A stretch of DNA of 27,238 nucleotides from a virus, in the IMG/VR virus record IMGVR_UViG_3300032285_002458, positions 1-27,238 of that record; one strand, written 5' to 3'. The position numbers were made by a program, and so were the translations under genes. Within the stretch, counting starts at the first letter, position 1; the number at the start of each line of letters is the position of its first letter. This document shows positions 2,865 through 27,238 of the stretch, piece after piece. The notes under the pieces were generated by a model. That model did not search any database, had not been told where the DNA came from, and worked only from the letters and a program-made list of their open reading frames with translations.

Positions 2865-3221
2865 ATGGCAATTCAAAAAGTAGACTTAACTGTAAGTCAA
2901 TTAGTAAGTGATCTTAATGATGGTTTTACATGGCTTAAGAAAGATGACTTAGGTTATGGATCTATAGAAGAAAAATATAAAGCTAATCCTATAGAAATAG
3001 CAAAGATTAGAAAACATCCAGCTCTTAAAGATGCAGAGACTAGTATTACAATATTTAACATTATAGATGATACAAAGAATGATACAACCACCTCTACCAA
3101 AGAATCTTCATCTAGAAGGACAGATAGTAATGTTCAACAACCAGTATTGGCAATGGAACAGAGTAACACAGGAGTGGATGTTAATGAATCAACTGCAGCA
3201 GACATCTTTGCAAACCTCTAA
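2865..3221 (+). CDS. Unknown protein with a disordered Ser/Thr-rich tail
   Basis: 118 residues. The first ~70 are ordered and helical (VDLTVSQLVSDLNDGFTWL, then a KYKANPIEIAKIRKHP region). From about residue 72 the sequence becomes Thr/Ser/Asn/Asp-rich and probably disordered, ending STAADIFANL. An A-rich tract precedes the ATG. It lies between UDG and the AAA+ gene, 20 nt before the latter's preferred start. Another frame is open across its last 155 nt (see findings). No family is recognised. Confidence 0.7.
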   Translation: MAIQKVDLTVSQLVSDLNDGFTWLKKDDLGYGSIEEKYKANPIEIAKIRKHPALKDAETSITIFNIIDDTKNDTTTSTKESSSRRTDSNVQQPVLAMEQSNTGVDVNESTAADIFANL

Positions 3222-3240
3222 CAATGATCCTCTTAGAATT

Positions 3241-4854
3241 ATGAGTACAAGACCAAGTCCTACAGAAAGTGCTACATGGTATGAACCAGGCACAATTAAA
3301 CAAGGTAATGATGGAAGAATGTACACTATAAGTGTTACTAATGGTGGTGCACATAGATGGGTACCAGCACCACATAACTTATATAGTTCAGTAGAAATTA
3401 AGAGTCCTAGACATCCTGCATTTAATATTACTGCAAACTCAACATATGGAGCTCATATAAATTCTCAATATAAATTTAAAGTAGGAGATAGAGTAAAAGT
3501 AATACAACATGGATTAGGAGTAGGTCCAGAAGATGCTGGAGTAGAAGTAATTGTTATAGAAACAGGAAACTATTCAGGTAATCCAGGGTATAAAGTATCA
3601 CCTCCTATAGGTAATAGTCAACAATATTCTGATGGACATTACCATGGATACGATGGATTCATAGGAGAACAAACATTTGAACTTGTAGAACAACCAATTA
3701 TTCAACAAACAATAACAAAACCCCGTAACATGGCAAAAGCAGTAAAGTCTATCACTAAGAAGACTACACAGGAAGTAAGAAACATTGAAACTTCTTTGAT
3801 TAACAAGGAAGAGGTATTTAAAATGCTAGCATTAGCAGAAGCTACAGGATTACCATTATTATTGGTAGGAAACCCAGGAGTAGCTAAAACCAAAACTATT
3901 ATAGAATATGCCAAAGCTTGGTTAAACAAGGATGGTAAAATGACTGCAGATGATTTTGCAAACAAAATGTATGTACTAGAAACTGACGAGGGTACTAAAG
4001 CATCAGAGATTAAAGGTATCCCAGACTTAGGTAAGTTGTTCACTGATAACAAATATGAACTTAGCACTCCTATTGCAGATGCTGAGATTGTTGTAATCAA
4101 TGAGGTGGATAAAGCTAGCTCAGCTATCAGAAATGCTATGTTGGGTGTAATGAACGAGAAGTTCTTATTTAATGGTAAGCACAAGATTCCATGTAAATGG
4201 AAATTGTTTGTAGCCACTTGTAATGAAATTCCTAAAGAAGAAATAGGAAGTCCATTCTGGGATAGATTTATGTTGAAGATGACTGTAAACCGTGTAACCA
4301 CAGGTGAGCTTGTAAAGTATTATGAGAAAGGTGCTAGAGACTATCGTGAGAAGTTTTCTATTGGTATTCCTAATAAGGCTGAGATGGCTAATTTAGAAGT
4401 TCCAGTTAAGAAAATGGAGAAATATCTTGAGGTGGGCTATCAAGCAAGTTCAGATCGTACATTAACTTTTGTACCAAGTTTGGCTAAAGCTGTAAGTTAC
4501 ATTTGGGATATTAGTATTGACAAAGCTTTGGTGAAAACAGCTCAGATAATGATTGGACAAACTGCTGGTTCTGAATTACAGAATAAGTTGATGAGTCCGG
4601 AAGTTAAGGCTGTAATGTCTAAAGTGGAGATGTTACGTTCTCATAACAGCAATGAATCTCTTGAGCTAGCAGTAGCTGAGATTGAAAGCTTGATTAATGC
4701 ATACACTTCTAGAGGTGTAATGGATGAAGGTCAAGTGGAAGAGATAGAAATATCTATGCAGTATCTTTTAGCTGATCATCCAGCTCGTAAAGACTATCAG
4801 TCTTCAGAAGAGTTTGATGCTATGTTAGAAGATTCTCCTGAATCAGCATTCTAA
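3241..4854 (+). CDS. MoxR-type AAA+ ATPase with KOW/SH3-like N-terminal region
   Basis: 537 residues from the chosen ATG. Residues ~1-50 hold an aromatic motif (WYEPG...MYTISVTNGGAHRWVP), ~76-150 a beta-rich SH3/KOW-like segment beginning YKFKVGDRVKV, and ~190-400 the AAA+ module: Walker A GNPGVAKT (210-217), Walker B IVVINEVD (283-290), sensor 1 FVATCNE (323-329) and a DRF motif (341-343). The NE in Walker B and overall pattern fit MoxR ATPases, which with VWA partners remodel or activate target proteins. A VWA gene follows directly. The frame stays open upstream to 3067 in overlap with the previous gene; ATG 3241 is chosen for minimal overlap. An in-frame ATG at 3730 could give an ATPase-only form. 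Confidence 0.85.
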   Translation: MSTRPSPTESATWYEPGTIKQGNDGRMYTISVTNGGAHRWVPAPHNLYSSVEIKSPRHPAFNITANSTYGAHINSQYKFKVGDRVKVIQHGLGVGPEDAGVEVIVIETGNYSGNPGYKVSPPIGNSQQYSDGHYHGYDGFIGEQTFELVEQPIIQQTITKPRNMAKAVKSITKKTTQEVRNIETSLINKEEVFKMLALAEATGLPLLLVGNPGVAKTKTIIEYAKAWLNKDGKMTADDFANKMYVLETDEGTKASEIKGIPDLGKLFTDNKYELSTPIADAEIVVINEVDKASSAIRNAMLGVMNEKFLFNGKHKIPCKWKLFVATCNEIPKEEIGSPFWDRFMLKMTVNRVTTGELVKYYEKGARDYREKFSIGIPNKAEMANLEVPVKKMEKYLEVGYQASSDRTLTFVPSLAKAVSYIWDISIDKALVKTAQIMIGQTAGSELQNKLMSPEVKAVMSKVEMLRSHNSNESLELAVAEIESLINAYTSRGVMDEGQVEEIEISMQYLLADHPARKDYQSSEEFDAMLEDSPESAF

Positions 4855-4860
4855 TAAACT

Positions 4861-4898
4861 AATAAAGGGGGTACTACTTTTTGGTACCCCTTTATTTT
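4861..4898 (+). terminator. Intrinsic terminator between the MoxR and VWA genes
   Basis: AATAAAGGGGGTAC (4861-4874) pairs with GTACCCCTTTATT (4884-4896), leaving one bulged G and a loop of about 9 nt, then a T run. It begins 6 nt after the AAA+ stop and ends 13 nt before the VWA start. The flanking A and T runs could let it work in both directions. Confidence 0.7.
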
Positions 4899-4910
4899 AA
4901 ATTAATAATT

Positions 4911-6416
4911 ATGGCAGGTAAAAGTTACAAGAATGTATATACCATTCTAGAGAAAGTAAAGAAGGGAGAAATCAAATCCCATTATAAAACAGATGAAGGT
5001 TTATTTGGAAAAGTGAATTTCTATAAAAAACCAGATATTGTCACACCAAATCTTCACTATTTAGATGAAGCTAGAATAGATTCTATTATGAGAACTCATA
5101 TAGAAAACAAAGATTCATACAAAGAAACATTTGATAGATTCAGAAGTGGTTCTGCGTATAGAAAAGTTCCAGATGATAAGAAACCAGATTTTAATAAATT
5201 CTATGCTGAGGTTGCTGATATTTATAAGAATAAGTTTCCTAAACATTTAGCTAGAGACATTTTCAAGATGTACTATAATAAAATAGAAAAGCTTGAATTT
5301 GAAAACAGAGATGAAAAAAACCACAGTAAATTTAAGTTTTTAGAAAGAGCTAATAATCCTGTAGGTAAAATCATGTCAGAAAATAGTCAGCTTAAATCTG
5401 CTATTTTTATGAAGAACATTGTAGGATATTATGTTTCACAACTTGCTATGTTAAAGTTTCAAGATGAACAAGCAGCTGAAGATATAATGAACAATCTTAA
5501 AAATGGTGGAAATGAGTTTAGTAATGACAAAGCAGATGATGCAATGGATAAAATGCTAGACAACGCTCTATCTAAAAACATGTTAGAGCAAGCTGTTAAT
5601 GATGCACAGAATACATGTAAAACACTTGATGAAGCAATGTCTGATGAGCAACAGGATCAAATGTTTGAGTCTTCTAACAGAAGTGAAGAAGCTTCTAAAC
5701 TAGATGGTCAGTTCTTAAATAGAATAGCCAAAGACATCCAAAGAGTTAAGCTTTCTTTAGGCAATCTTAAAGAGAAGATTAAAAAGCTAATGGATAAATC
5801 TGCTAGTTATTTTTCTGCTAAAGAAGAAACTACGTATGATGATTTGTTCAATTCTGACAATATTGGAGGTCTTGATGATTTTATGTTGTTACATCCTAGT
5901 CTTAGAAAGATAATGATTGAAGATGTAATGATTAAAGACACCAAAAAAGTGGGTAAGATAGATCTTTATATAGATATATCAGGATCCATGGCTTCAGATT
6001 GTGGTGTTAAAACAGATGATGGATCCTATATCAGCAAGCTTGATTTCTGTAAATCTTTTGCATATAAGCTTAAAGAAATGGATATGTTGAATGACATCTA
6101 CACCTTTGAGAATGTTGTAAGAAAGATTGGTAGTGATCTTGTAAGTATTGCAATGATAGATGACAGAGGTGGTACAGATATTGATAAAGCTGTATCCAAA
6201 GTTGTAAAGAATGGCTTAAATGCTATTATTATTACAGATGCAGAAGATCATTGCTCTATTTATTCTGATAAGGCATTCTTTATTGGTGTACAGGGATCTA
6301 GATTTAGTGGATTCCGTGATGAGGTGATTAAAGAATATTCTGAAAAAGAACAAGTGATTGTATTCAATGGAACCACCATTAGTAAAGTGGACCAAAGAGG
6401 TTTCATAATAAAATAG
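4911..6416 (+). CDS. VWA-domain protein, partner of the MoxR ATPase
   Basis: 501 residues. The upstream extension to 4881 lies in the terminator, so the start is ATG 4911 (MAGKSYKNVYT). Residues ~1-340 are helical, charged and probably coiled-coil rich (an NQLKSAIFMKNIVGYY-type helix, then an Asp/Glu/Asn-rich linker). The last ~150 residues form a VWA domain with a metal-ion site: DISGS (near 355), the Thr of GGTDID (near 420) and the Asp of IITDAED (near 440). The order of a long helical region followed by a C-terminal VWA resembles the VWA partners of MoxR ATPases (CoxE, ViaA, NorD types), which act as adaptors for the AAA+ ring. The target in the phage cycle is unknown. The stop is TAG. 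Confidence 0.85.
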   Translation: MAGKSYKNVYTILEKVKKGEIKSHYKTDEGLFGKVNFYKKPDIVTPNLHYLDEARIDSIMRTHIENKDSYKETFDRFRSGSAYRKVPDDKKPDFNKFYAEVADIYKNKFPKHLARDIFKMYYNKIEKLEFENRDEKNHSKFKFLERANNPVGKIMSENSQLKSAIFMKNIVGYYVSQLAMLKFQDEQAAEDIMNNLKNGGNEFSNDKADDAMDKMLDNALSKNMLEQAVNDAQNTCKTLDEAMSDEQQDQMFESSNRSEEASKLDGQFLNRIAKDIQRVKLSLGNLKEKIKKLMDKSASYFSAKEETTYDDLFNSDNIGGLDDFMLLHPSLRKIMIEDVMIKDTKKVGKIDLYIDISGSMASDCGVKTDDGSYISKLDFCKSFAYKLKEMDMLNDIYTFENVVRKIGSDLVSIAMIDDRGGTDIDKAVSKVVKNGLNAIIITDAEDHCSIYSDKAFFIGVQGSRFSGFRDEVIKEYSEKEQVIVFNGTTISKVDQRGFIIK

Positions 6417-22873: not shown

Positions 22874-25800
22874 TTATCTAATATAGAAATTACTAACAGT
22901 TTCAAAGCTTTCCCATCTATTTAGAATTCCTAAAGCTGGTATTATATCTTTAGCTTGTTTCCAAGCTTTCAATTGACCATCATAAGGACCTCTTTCATAA
23001 TAGTTTTTATCATATGGAGGGAAAGGAAGACTAAGAATAGAACTTATAGCTTCTCCCCAATCTTTCATTGTACCAACAGCAGCTATTGGACTTTTAAGCA
23101 TCTGAAATTGTTCACTCCAACCAAGAATTGGGATATATGTTTTTATCTCATTTTGTTGTCTAGTTTGTTGGTATATCAAAAAGTTTACTAATTTTTTTAC
23201 TTCATCATCATCATCATCAACACCAGATGCTAACAATCTAAATAAATGAGCGGCAATAACAGATGCCATAAAGAAACTTAATTCAGCAAGATTTTTATAC
23301 ATGTTCTTCACTTGGATTTCATCCATATTTTGATATGTTTTAGATCCAGGTATAAATGCTCCAATCATACCGACTGTCTTAGCTAAGAAACCTTGTTCAG
23401 TTTGATAAACATGTTTCATAACATTATAAAAAGTTCTATATCTACCTTCAATGGTTCCTAATGTAACATTATCATATCTTCCTTGGAATCTAGCTTTAAT
23501 CCCTGGTACTATCCATTTATGGAACTGAGCACCCAACTGTCCAAGAGCATGCTGTTGTATAACCATTCTATCTTCATGAGCATAGTTACCATGAATTTGT
23601 TTATTCACTTCATATATGTAAGTGGTAACTTTTGTTCTAAGATCTTCAGGTAGTTCAAACCCAGGTTTTAATGTTAGTTCATTTGTTTGTTCATTAAATG
23701 TAAAGGCATCATATATAGATAGAGTTTCACCTGTTGTTTCATTTTTTACTTGAAACTTATCTCCCATTACAATAGCCATTCCTGTTTTAGATTGTACATT
23801 AAATTCACCCACTTCTTGAAATATATAAGCAGCTTCTGTAAGTTTATTACCAGTTAGCTTACCGGAATCATCTTGGAATTTTCTTACCATTCTAAAATAG
23901 GCAGCTATTGCTTCATATTTAGAATAGTGTTTTTCTTGTTTATATGGTCCATCATTTGAAGATCCTATTCTTTTCATAGCACCAGGTAGATAATCTTTAT
24001 TATATTCACTTGTTGCTTTAGAATAAGATTTTCTATCATAATAAACTCCACCATAAGCTTCTATGGCATTATTTATTCTACCCATTACATAGTTATTTAT
24101 ACCACCAAATAGGTTAAAACCAATTCCTTTTAATGATGTAATATTTTGAATTTTCTTAGCCACTTGAGCAAACTGACTATAATCATACTCATCATTATTG
24201 TAATACACCATCTTGAACCATTTCTTCATACGTTCATATGCAAGAGAAGCACCTTCAGCTTTATAAATATCTTTACTATCTACACCTTTAGATACAAACT
24301 TTTTATCTTCACTGGTAGATTGGTAGTATTTTTTCTTTTCTACAATTTTAGAAATAGCTAACAATGAACTTTCTATGTTAGACATCTGCTCATACTTCTC
24401 AGTCATAGATCTAAAAGCTATAAGATTTTCTACAAGATCTGTATTAATCTCATCATAGTCTATTTTAGAATTTTCAATAGCTAATGAAAGTTCAAGTTTT
24501 TTTAATTCACTTTCATATTCTTCACTAGTCAAAGCTTTAGCAACTATATACTGATTTTTTAAGTCTTTTATTTTTTGTTCTAAAGCTGCTATTCTTTTTT
24601 CATTACGAGCATTATTTGTATAAAGAACAGGTAGGTTATCTACAGGAACACCTTCATCATCTGTAAGACGTTGAGTTGAATGCATCTTAGGAGATATATC
24701 AAACCAACTAGTTATACCTTTGGTTACAGCTTTAAAATAAGAAGTTCCTTTACGTTTAGCAGCATTTAGATAATTATCCTTCACTCTAGCCACTTTTCCC
24801 AACATCTTTTGTTGTTGGTCAAGGGTGAGACTTTCTAGTCCTGCTTTCATTTCTTCAACAAATACATGATAGAATTCTCTTTTTGCAACATCTTCTGCAG
24901 ATTTACCATTCATAAGAGAAACATATCTTGCATCTCTCATGTCTTCACCATCATTAGTTATTTCTTTTATCTCTACACATTTTGATTTTGGGAAATAACT
25001 TATATCTTTTTTAACCTTTCCTTTAAATTCACCATCAACAGTTTCTGCTCTTAAATATTCCACTCTATCATACCATCTATCTCTATATTTTCTATAAGCT
25101 TCATCACTCACTCCTATTTTTTGAACCCAAACTAATTTTCCTTTTTGTAAAGCTTGACCATTCGGAACTTCATATTTAGCTCTTTCATTTATAAATTCAA
25201 TACTAAATCTATGATGATTACCACTTATTATTTGGTTCTTACCATCTAATTGTTCAGCTTGTCTAAACTCTTGAATCTTTTCTTTTATCTGTCTCACTTT
25301 TATATTGTGAGCTATTTGTTCCGGAGTAGCTTTAGATAAATCTTCTATTTCAATATATTCCATTGTCTCTCCATTCTCATCCTTTAGAAGAGAATACACT
25401 TGACGTTTTATATCATAATACTTTTGACCAATGGCTTGTAAATATCGTCCTGAGAATTTTCCTTCTTTGTCATAGTTTAACATGAAAGAAAAATCTATTT
25501 TCTTTACACCTAAAGCAGCTGCTAGTTTATTACCTGCAGTCATTATTCTACTTTTAAATGTATCATTTTTGTTTTTAGATTTTTGATCAGCTTCTGTCCA
25601 TAAATTAGCAGCAATAGCTAAAAGCTTTTCTTTGGTGTTTTGCATATCACTAAGTCCATAGTCAGCTAAGCTAATATCGTATCCTTCTTTTAAAAGATTT
25701 GTAAGTTCCTCTTCAGAAATTGTATTGTCTAATTTTTTTCTAATAAGATCTTTTACATATTCTTCTAGGGCCGGATTGATTTCTGCTTTTACAGCATTCA

Positions 25801-27238
25801 ATCTACTTTGTACAGATCTCATAAGAGCATACTGGTCTTGTGACCCAAGTCCAATTTCTGGGATACTTGCTATATCTCTGTAAGACTCTACAAACTTTTC
25901 AGCTTCTAACACAACATCAATATAATTTTCTTTATTAACATTAGCTGGATTACTTATATACCTATACAAACTATCAAGAGTATCTTTTGTATAATTTAGT
26001 AATGCTCCAAAAGCAAGATCGGGTGCTCCAATAGTTTTTATTTCTACAACCGAAAGTAGTTGTGATATTCTATCTATAGCAAGTTCTTTACTTTCATCAC
26101 TAAATGCATCAAATCTTGTCTGATTAAGATTCTTTAAATACTCCATACGTTTACGGAGCTTATCTCTATAAGTTTGAATAGTTTCTTTAAGTTTAGCTTG
26201 TATTTCTGCTGGAATTTCTTCTGGCATTTCTTCTTTCTCATCTAAGAAGTTATCATCATTAGCTGGATTGTGTACCCCTAATGTTTTTTTAAAGCCAGCC
26301 ACTTTATTTTTACCAGGTTTTGTAGGAACTATTCTATTTACAAATGCTTCATTAGAACTTGGTAGATGTTCTTGTTCATCTTCTAATTCAAAATCTTTAA
26401 TTCTTTGAGTGTCTCCTAGTCCTTCTAATTGTAAATGAATATGTATTGTAGATGTACCAGAAATAGGAAATCCACTTATTTCAGCAAGTCTTTTGTAAAC
26501 AGCCACCTGAATATTGTGTTGCTGTTGTGTAGTTATTTTTTCACCAATTAATAATGATCCTTTATTTACAGGATGTGGAGTGTTTCTATAGGCATCAGAT
26601 GTACTTCTAGTTTTAGAAACCTTAAGATCCTTGATAAACATTTCACCATTAGGTTTTATTATCAATATATCCAAAGAACCAGCTATACCGGATATAGGAT
26701 CTGCTACAACAAACTGAGGAACTATTATAGAACCATCAGATGTAAGACCTAATACAATTCCTTTTAAAAGATCATAAGCTCTTCTTGAAATATCTTCAGA
26801 TACAATATCTGTCATATCAGATTTAGCTTCTTCAAATGTTTTACCTTCAATAATATTTTGAAGAGCTTTATCAAAGTGATTACCAAAAAGTCTATTAAGC
26901 TCATACTTTCCTTCAGGATCATTCATCTCACCTTTAATTGCCATGGTGGTTGATGTATACACTTGACCTGTTTTGGTATGCATGTATACGTGACTTTTTT
27001 CTTCTAATAAAACTCTACCTGGATCTTCTTCTCCTGGTTTAGCTTCAAAATATAATTCATCAATTATTCTTTTTTGAAGGTCGTTGCCTTTAGCTCTAAG
27101 TCTGTCTTTAAACTTTCTAGTTCTATCATCTAACTGATAGTTTGCTTTTCTACTTACATTTAATCCCTTTACATTTATTTTAGAATCAGACATGCTCACC
27201 ATATTAGCAATATCTTGTAAGCTGTTGGTAAGTTCTAA
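22874..27238 (-). CDS. Giant virion-associated-type protein with PD-(D/E)XK domain (N-terminus outside window)
   Basis: At least 1,454 residues. The first internal Met is at 27202, but the frame stays open for 12 more codons (LELTNSLQDIAN) to the window edge, so the true start may lie outside. Counting from Met 27202, ~65-240 looks like a PD-(D/E)XK nuclease: HVYMHTKTGQVYTSTTMAI (71-89), GSLDILII with D178, KDLKVSK with D192-x-K194, and QQQHNIQVAVYKRL (226-239). Then come long charged coiled-coil stretches, a possible TM helix (~1308-1327) and a DDDDD tract, with a conserved-looking YIPILGWSEQFQM end. No RNA polymerase DxDGD motif is visible. Probably a virion or ejected cargo protein. Confidence 0.75.
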   Translation of the reverse strand, partial: LELTNSLQDIANMVSMSDSKINVKGLNVSRKANYQLDDRTRKFKDRLRAKGNDLQKRIIDELYFEAKPGEEDPGRVLLEEKSHVYMHTKTGQVYTSTTMAIKGEMNDPEGKYELNRLFGNHFDKALQNIIEGKTFEEAKSDMTDIVSEDISRRAYDLLKGIVLGLTSDGSIIVPQFVVADPISGIAGSLDILIIKPNGEMFIKDLKVSKTRSTSDAYRNTPHPVNKGSLLIGEKITTQQQHNIQVAVYKRLAEISGFPISGTSTIHIHLQLEGLGDTQRIKDFELEDEQEHLPSSNEAFVNRIVPTKPGKNKVAGFKKTLGVHNPANDDNFLDEKEEMPEEIPAEIQAKLKETIQTYRDKLRKRMEYLKNLNQTRFDAFSDESKELAIDRISQLLSVVEIKTIGAPDLAFGALLNYTKDTLDSLYRYISNPANVNKENYIDVVLEAEKFVESYRDIASIPEIGLGSQDQYALMRSVQSRLNAVKAEINPALEEYVKDLIRKKLDNTISEEELTNLLKEGYDISLADYGLSDMQNTKEKLLAIAANLWTEADQKSKNKNDTFKSRIMTAGNKLAAALGVKKIDFSFMLNYDKEGKFSGRYLQAIGQKYYDIKRQVYSLLKDENGETMEYIEIEDLSKATPEQIAHNIKVRQIKEKIQEFRQAEQLDGKNQIISGNHHRFSIEFINERAKYEVPNGQALQKGKLVWVQKIGVSDEAYRKYRDRWYDRVEYLRAETVDGEFKGKVKKDISYFPKSKCVEIKEITNDGEDMRDARYVSLMNGKSAEDVAKREFYHVFVEEMKAGLESLTLDQQQKMLGKVARVKDNYLNAAKRKGTSYFKAVTKGITSWFDISPKMHSTQRLTDDEGVPVDNLPVLYTNNARNEKRIAALEQKIKDLKNQYIVAKALTSEEYESELKKLELSLAIENSKIDYDEINTDLVENLIAFRSMTEKYEQMSNIESSLLAISKIVEKKKYYQSTSEDKKFVSKGVDSKDIYKAEGASLAYERMKKWFKMVYYNNDEYDYSQFAQVAKKIQNITSLKGIGFNLFGGINNYVMGRINNAIEAYGGVYYDRKSYSKATSEYNKDYLPGAMKRIGSSNDGPYKQEKHYSKYEAIAAYFRMVRKFQDDSGKLTGNKLTEAAYIFQEVGEFNVQSKTGMAIVMGDKFQVKNETTGETLSIYDAFTFNEQTNELTLKPGFELPEDLRTKVTTYIYEVNKQIHGNYAHEDRMVIQQHALGQLGAQFHKWIVPGIKARFQGRYDNVTLGTIEGRYRTFYNVMKHVYQTEQGFLAKTVGMIGAFIPGSKTYQNMDEIQVKNMYKNLAELSFFMASVIAAHLFRLLASGVDDDDDEVKKLVNFLIYQQTRQQNEIKTYIPILGWSEQFQMLKSPIAAVGTMKDWGEAISSILSLPFPPYDKNYYERGPYDGQLKAWKQAKDIIPALGILNRWESFETVSNFYIR

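Follow-up and report, generated by a model that had tools for sequence, protein, structure and literature searches.

A MoxR ATPase with variable N-terminal modules and its VWA partner in uncultivated Crassvirales-like phages

The stretch of DNA analysed here, referred to as the window, comprises 27,238 nucleotides (positions 1 to 27,238) of the virus record IMGVR_UViG_3300032285_002458 from IMG/VR. Four plus-strand genes lead up to the MoxR-VWA pair: one for an SNF2-like helicase (335-1426), a small one (1423-1815), one for a uracil-DNA glycosylase (UDG; 2123-2845) and one of 118 codons (2865-3221). They are followed on the same strand by the gene for a MoxR ATPase, with a full open frame of 595 codons (3067-4854), and by the gene for a VWA protein of 501 amino acids (4911-6416), which is supported by a 50-member alignment and by its position next to MoxR. 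Two gene starts differ from those given previously. The ATPase frame had been placed from 3241, but it actually opens at 3067, with the first 58 codons of the MoxR gene overlapping the 2865-3221 gene in the +1 frame of the latter; the VWA protein was assigned to the ATG at 4911 instead of the listed frame from 4881, which opens within a hairpin. The conserved 118-residue protein encoded directly 5′ of MoxR is a third member of the cassette with an unassigned function: tblastn detected its gene in 105 of 111 collected sequences, and the protein has no match in Pfam or NCBIfam. It always lies 5′ of MoxR, and its C-terminal half is variable, of low complexity and dual-coded.

The part of the MoxR frame from 3730 to 4854 encodes the AAA+ core together with a helical C-terminal part. 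The motifs from which the original prediction had recognized a MoxR AAA+ ATPase were all located in the window, i.e. Walker A (GNPGVAKT, nucleotide 3868), Walker B with its NE (IVVINEVD, 4087) and sensor 1 (ATCNE, 4213). The product of 3730-4854 matches the Pfam family bpMoxR (PF20030) with an E-value of 1.6e-23 and 83.3 bits (cut-off 27), AAA_5 being matched too, and bpMoxR is the top Pfam match in all 49 MoxR relatives analysed. Searched against the PDB, the family profile retrieved RavA (1.2e-8) and a ClpB-like protein of marginal score, but no other entry; the top Foldseek matches of the MoxR model are RavA, CHU_0153 of Cytophaga and BchI. The motifs and the profile score above the cut-off thus place the protein among MoxR AAA+ ATPases, in the bpMoxR/RavA branch; it is not RavA proper, as it scores 47.5 bits with the NCBIfam RavA equivalog, whose curated cut-off is 681 bits. 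The MoxR core is 84-85% identical to its counterparts in two distant genomes, the highest value among 15 proteins compared (41-81% for the others, including 54-56% for the VWA protein). The MoxR alignment, when used to scan bacterial genomes, returned no relative, so no bacterial source for MoxR was identified. In one relative (L021, 1285-2356) an insertion of about 1 kb interrupts the MoxR gene at Walker A, and since the insert codes for a GIY-YIG-like endonuclease, it is likely a mobile intron. Insertions at Walker A occur also in L018, L019, G023 and G025, and L146 carries one at another site; a search of the Walker A insertions against Rfam found no group I intron.

The original prediction of a helical protein ending in a MIDAS-bearing VWA domain is upheld for the adjoining gene. 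The AlphaFold2 model (mean pLDDT 80.5) combines an alpha-helical body (5058-5798) with a C-terminal Rossmann-type VWA domain (5943-6413), in which the MIDAS elements DISGS (5973), GGT (6168) and ITD (6231) are found. The MIDAS residues D355, S357, S359, T422 and D443 are invariant in the alignment of 50 VWA proteins, and Foldseek retrieves integrin I domains, TROVE/Ro proteins and VWFA proteins of tailed phages. The DxSxS...T...D signature and the predicted fold identify the protein as a VWA protein with a MIDAS; it is missed by the Pfam VWA model and has no other usable Pfam match. Pfam searches of the 50 members likewise revealed no effector domain and no metallopeptidase domain. An identity as a TROVE/Ro60 protein was considered and rejected: the top Foldseek match, 9kop, has a probability of 1.00 but a TM-score of only 0.21-0.23, and in a profile comparison with a crAss TROVE protein the alignment is limited to the DxSGS strand. 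We retain TROVE/Ro60 as a distant fold resemblance of the VWA model.

Scanning IMG/VR with each of the two proteins yielded 110 loci, several of them from shared contigs, and the VWA gene stands next to the MoxR core in every locus with enough downstream sequence. To avoid circularity, we gathered long contigs through Sak4 and PolB instead and searched 20 of them for the pair. Both genes occur in 19, in single copy unless split by an intron; the exception, G018, is an 86-kb contig with Sak4 close to its end, and its coordinates suggest that the pair would lie beyond. This survey of co-occurrence bears out the original view of a phage-encoded pair of the RavA-ViaA/CoxDE type whose members are retained together: MoxR and VWA are single-copy core genes of a deep, uncultivated group of Crassvirales-like phages. 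We call the group uncultivated because a collection of phage isolates gave just four weak matches to MoxR and nothing related to the VWA protein. At 21-25% identity, the capsid, portal, terminase and RNA-polymerase-like proteins of a 131-kb relative (G002) have counterparts in the crAssphage cr112_1 (the terminase was recovered by this comparison and not by Pfam PF03237), and a giant protein encoded on the minus strand of the window (22874-27202) is a distant kin of crAssphage virion RNA polymerase subunits. The group therefore appears to belong to Crassvirales or to a close sister lineage, an assignment based on the presence of marker homologues. Two further features of individual relatives may be mentioned here: the DNA polymerase B matches in L307 and L308 are about 175 bases longer than those in other relatives, suggesting an insertion, and G009 encodes a ribonucleotide reductase (C1:20603-21928) that is absent from 11 other contigs of the group.

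The N-terminal region of MoxR, for which a known domain had been sought, gave nothing in Pfam when searched alone, even at E≤10. The region had been pictured as a single unusual extension with an SH3/KOW-like segment; the predicted barrel is indeed there, but comparison of relatives resolves the region into as many as three small beta modules (M1, M2 and M3) in varying combination rather than a single domain. Any of them may be absent, and in L090, L095 and L105 the extension is almost lacking. AlphaFold2 models the modules with pLDDT near 90 (about 87-95) and the linkers between them with values below 50; the placement of the modules is uninformative, because the full-length MoxR model reaches a pTM of only 0.54. 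M1 (3118-3186; GQ..WNNQWYLW....Q.W) is modelled as a three-stranded beta mini-domain (pLDDT about 87-93) and is dual-coded with the upstream gene; matches to its profile are confined to MoxR frames of these phages, and in some relatives a helical segment replaces it. M2 (3250-3369; RPSPT.SAT..G....GNDG..W.V....GV.RWV), defined by alignment and AlphaFold2, shows a hint, and only a hint, of a single beta-propeller blade: it weakly matches designed beta-propeller Cake proteins, with repeats summed over blades. A stand-alone protein of 63 amino acids, barely more than M2 (SPTDSAT..GNDG.MW.V..NGV), is encoded by a 635-kb huge phage (L314, 2432-2623). M3 (3472-3690; KFKVGD.VKV..) is a predicted SH3/KOW-like beta barrel (pLDDT 90-95), and it was found in unrelated phage proteins, too (L147, L148, L149, L150 and L151).

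The reading of the extension as protein is supported by the pattern of dual coding. Among 63 distinct upstream genes, the +1 frame is open for 50.7 codons on average, compared to 18.8 under synonymous resampling, the respective values for the other alternative frame being 11.4 and 8.7; the MoxR core lies in the +1 frame of the upstream gene in 57 of the 63. Substitution rates in the overlap differ little between codon positions, as they would if both frames were constrained. Where the extension meets the core, an in-frame methionine is present in each of the 41 distinct extended relatives; it corresponds in the window to the ATG at 3730-3732, which together with its A-rich, G-poor leader constitutes a conserved internal start (3709-3732). 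The 21-nt leader has frequencies of 0.58 for A and 0.03 for G, compared to 0.40 and 0.17 in the extension just 5′ of it, and resembles authentic starts in these phages; in the window, the sequence TAACATGGCA at the internal start is identical to that at the start of the 2865 gene. A conserved in-frame ATG with a start-like leader following the extension makes two forms of MoxR likely. The simplest reading is a single gene with two starts, giving a long form with the modules (3067-4854) and a short form that would be the bare core (3730-4854), such that the N-terminal region may sit on only one of two isoforms. An alternative is that translation begins at 3730 only and that the upstream stretch, separate or untranslated, is in frame by chance. 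The start signature present in every extended relative and the existence of relatives lacking the extension would agree with it, but we regard it as quite unlikely, given that the modules show conservation at the protein level, are modelled with high confidence and turn up in other proteins, that no stop separates modules and core in the extended relatives read, and that the frame is kept open relative to synonymous resampling.

Between the two genes the window contains a terminator-like hairpin (4865-4893, plus strand) with a 12-bp stem and a U-containing tail (folding z-score -3.35), and a hairpin is found at the MoxR/VWA junction in 49 of 51 relatives. The original prediction took it for a terminator implying unequal expression of the pair; the hairpin in the window is real and terminator-like, but in many relatives the same site resembles a frameshift-stimulating structure. 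At 25 of 67 distinct MoxR 3′ ends, the last codons before the stop read NNC CCT TTY, constituting a C CCU UUY heptamer, and each of these 25 has a -1 frame that stays open for 27 codons or more, while the 29 ends lacking such a frame are all without the heptamer (Fisher 3e-9, a p value that is too small, the sequences being related). Open -1 frames of this length number 38, as opposed to 8.3 expected from shuffles. The spacer from the heptamer to the stem is mostly 4-7 nt in the relatives, and the stems at the signal have z-scores of -3.8 to -9.3. In the carriers, which include L003, L004, L005, L017, L064, L077, L085, L099 and L102, the conserved -1 frame spans 27-53 codons. A canonical -1 frameshift signal is thus predicted to add a variable C-terminal tail to MoxR in these relatives, and the predicted tails form a small number of families. 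Carriers of the signal are scattered over the MoxR tree, which implies frequent gain and loss of the signal or its transfer by recombination. The MoxR 3′ end of the window itself (GCATTC TAATAA) has no -1 frameshift signal, and neither have the nearest relatives, L002 and L039.

Our preferred reading, which we hold at about even confidence, is that the locus encodes a RavA/ViaA-like two-protein remodelling chaperone, some of whose subunits carry interchangeable adaptors. By analogy with RavA-ViaA, CobS-CobT and ATV p618-p892, we infer that MoxR would assemble into a hexameric ring driven by ATP and that the VWA protein would bind both MoxR and a client via the metal site of its MIDAS. The core being near-invariant, the variable N-terminal beta modules and the C-terminal tails of relatives would most likely serve as adaptors for the client or for localization. 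Translation starting inside the upstream gene would give MoxR with the N-terminal modules and translation from the ATG at 3730 the bare core, whereas the tail of the relatives would require a -1 frameshift; the extensions would therefore probably occur on only some subunits of a ring. That the phages build such mixed rings on purpose, mostly from bare cores with a minority of subunits bearing swappable N- or C-terminal adaptors, is a possible but doubtful extension of this reading.

The main rival, which we consider rather improbable, is that the pair is a virion-assembly chaperone that folds or assembles a structural protein, as has been proposed for the pair of jumbo phages (PMC7824862) and for ATV, whose p618/p892 interact with virion and tail proteins (PMC4124505). 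The genes, however, share their strand with the DNA helicase and UDG, apart from those for capsid, portal and terminase, and the variation of the modules suggests a variable client, though a tail protein could fit this as well. Because the pair lies beside helicase and UDG genes and away from structural genes, we weakly favour a replication, transcription or host complex as the client over late virion assembly. Less probable still is a conflict or counter-defence device, in which the pair would disarm or hijack a host system and the variable modules would track host targets. The best Pfam match being bpMoxR and the fast change of both MoxR termini are in line with it, the ternary MoxR-vWA systems being predicted conflict systems (PMC7159879), but the pair belongs to the core single-copy genes of these phages, and there is neither an effector domain on the VWA protein in the 50 members nor a beta-propeller, VMAP or iSTAND neighbour. 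Finally, a CobS/CobT-type cobalt-insertion helper raising vitamin B12 for ribonucleotide reductase, which a weak phrog_249 match (E 0.04) and the frequency of cobST pairs in tailed viruses (PMC8651126) might suggest, is highly improbable, as the NCBIfam CobS and CobT models have no match, CobN was found in none and ribonucleotide reductase in one of 12 related contigs, and both profile and fold put the ATPase nearest RavA.

If the remodelling chaperone does operate with mixed rings, exchange of adaptors would retarget one conserved motor to new clients. MoxR-VWA pairs are widespread, and for the question of how they choose their clients the large phage group described here offers many natural module swaps on a near-invariant core; if the internal start and the frameshift are used, they would provide a testable case of adaptors set by translation on some subunits of an AAA+ ring.

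Comparison with known systems helps to delimit what is new. The original prediction could name no described function for this architecture in phages; MoxR-VWA pairs as such have been reported from phages and other viruses (PMC7824862, PMC8651126, PMC4124505). As in RavA-ViaA of E. coli, the gene after the MoxR AAA+ core encodes a helical protein that ends in a VWA domain with MIDAS, the differences being the N-terminal beta modules, the internal start and the phage setting of the window MoxR. With the MoxR-vWA-beta-propeller ternary systems (PMC7159879) the locus shares bpMoxR as the best Pfam match (49 of 49 members), but its third conserved gene encodes a small unrelated protein, M2 is only blade-like, and a Pfam scan of the neighbours between 335 and 8546 found no beta-propeller third component, so it does not represent such a system. 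Group 2.2 jumbo phages likewise have adjacent MoxR and vWA genes, for an AAA+ chaperone and a VWA co-chaperone (PMC7824862); our locus falls outside that type, since their VWA protein carries a metallopeptidase domain and the one described here does not. ATV p618/p892 is a virus-encoded MoxR ATPase with a VWA partner, for which interaction and stimulation of the ATPase have been demonstrated (PMC4124505), but it comes from an archaeal virus and is a virion component; the likeness drawn here is one of described features. CobS/CobT-annotated pairs (PMC8651126) also combine AAA+ and VWA-MIDAS genes, whereas here matches to the CobS/CobT models and CobN are lacking and ribonucleotide reductase is almost absent. 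Frameshifting of the -1/+1 type in chlD yields separate chelatase subunits (PMC9227772) and thus resembles the present case in giving two products from a gene of the AAA+/VWA class; here, however, the predicted frameshift concerns relatives only and would add a C-terminal tail. The pair alone is thus already known in phages and viruses; what is new is the variable modules on a near-fixed motor, the internal start and the predicted frameshift of relatives.
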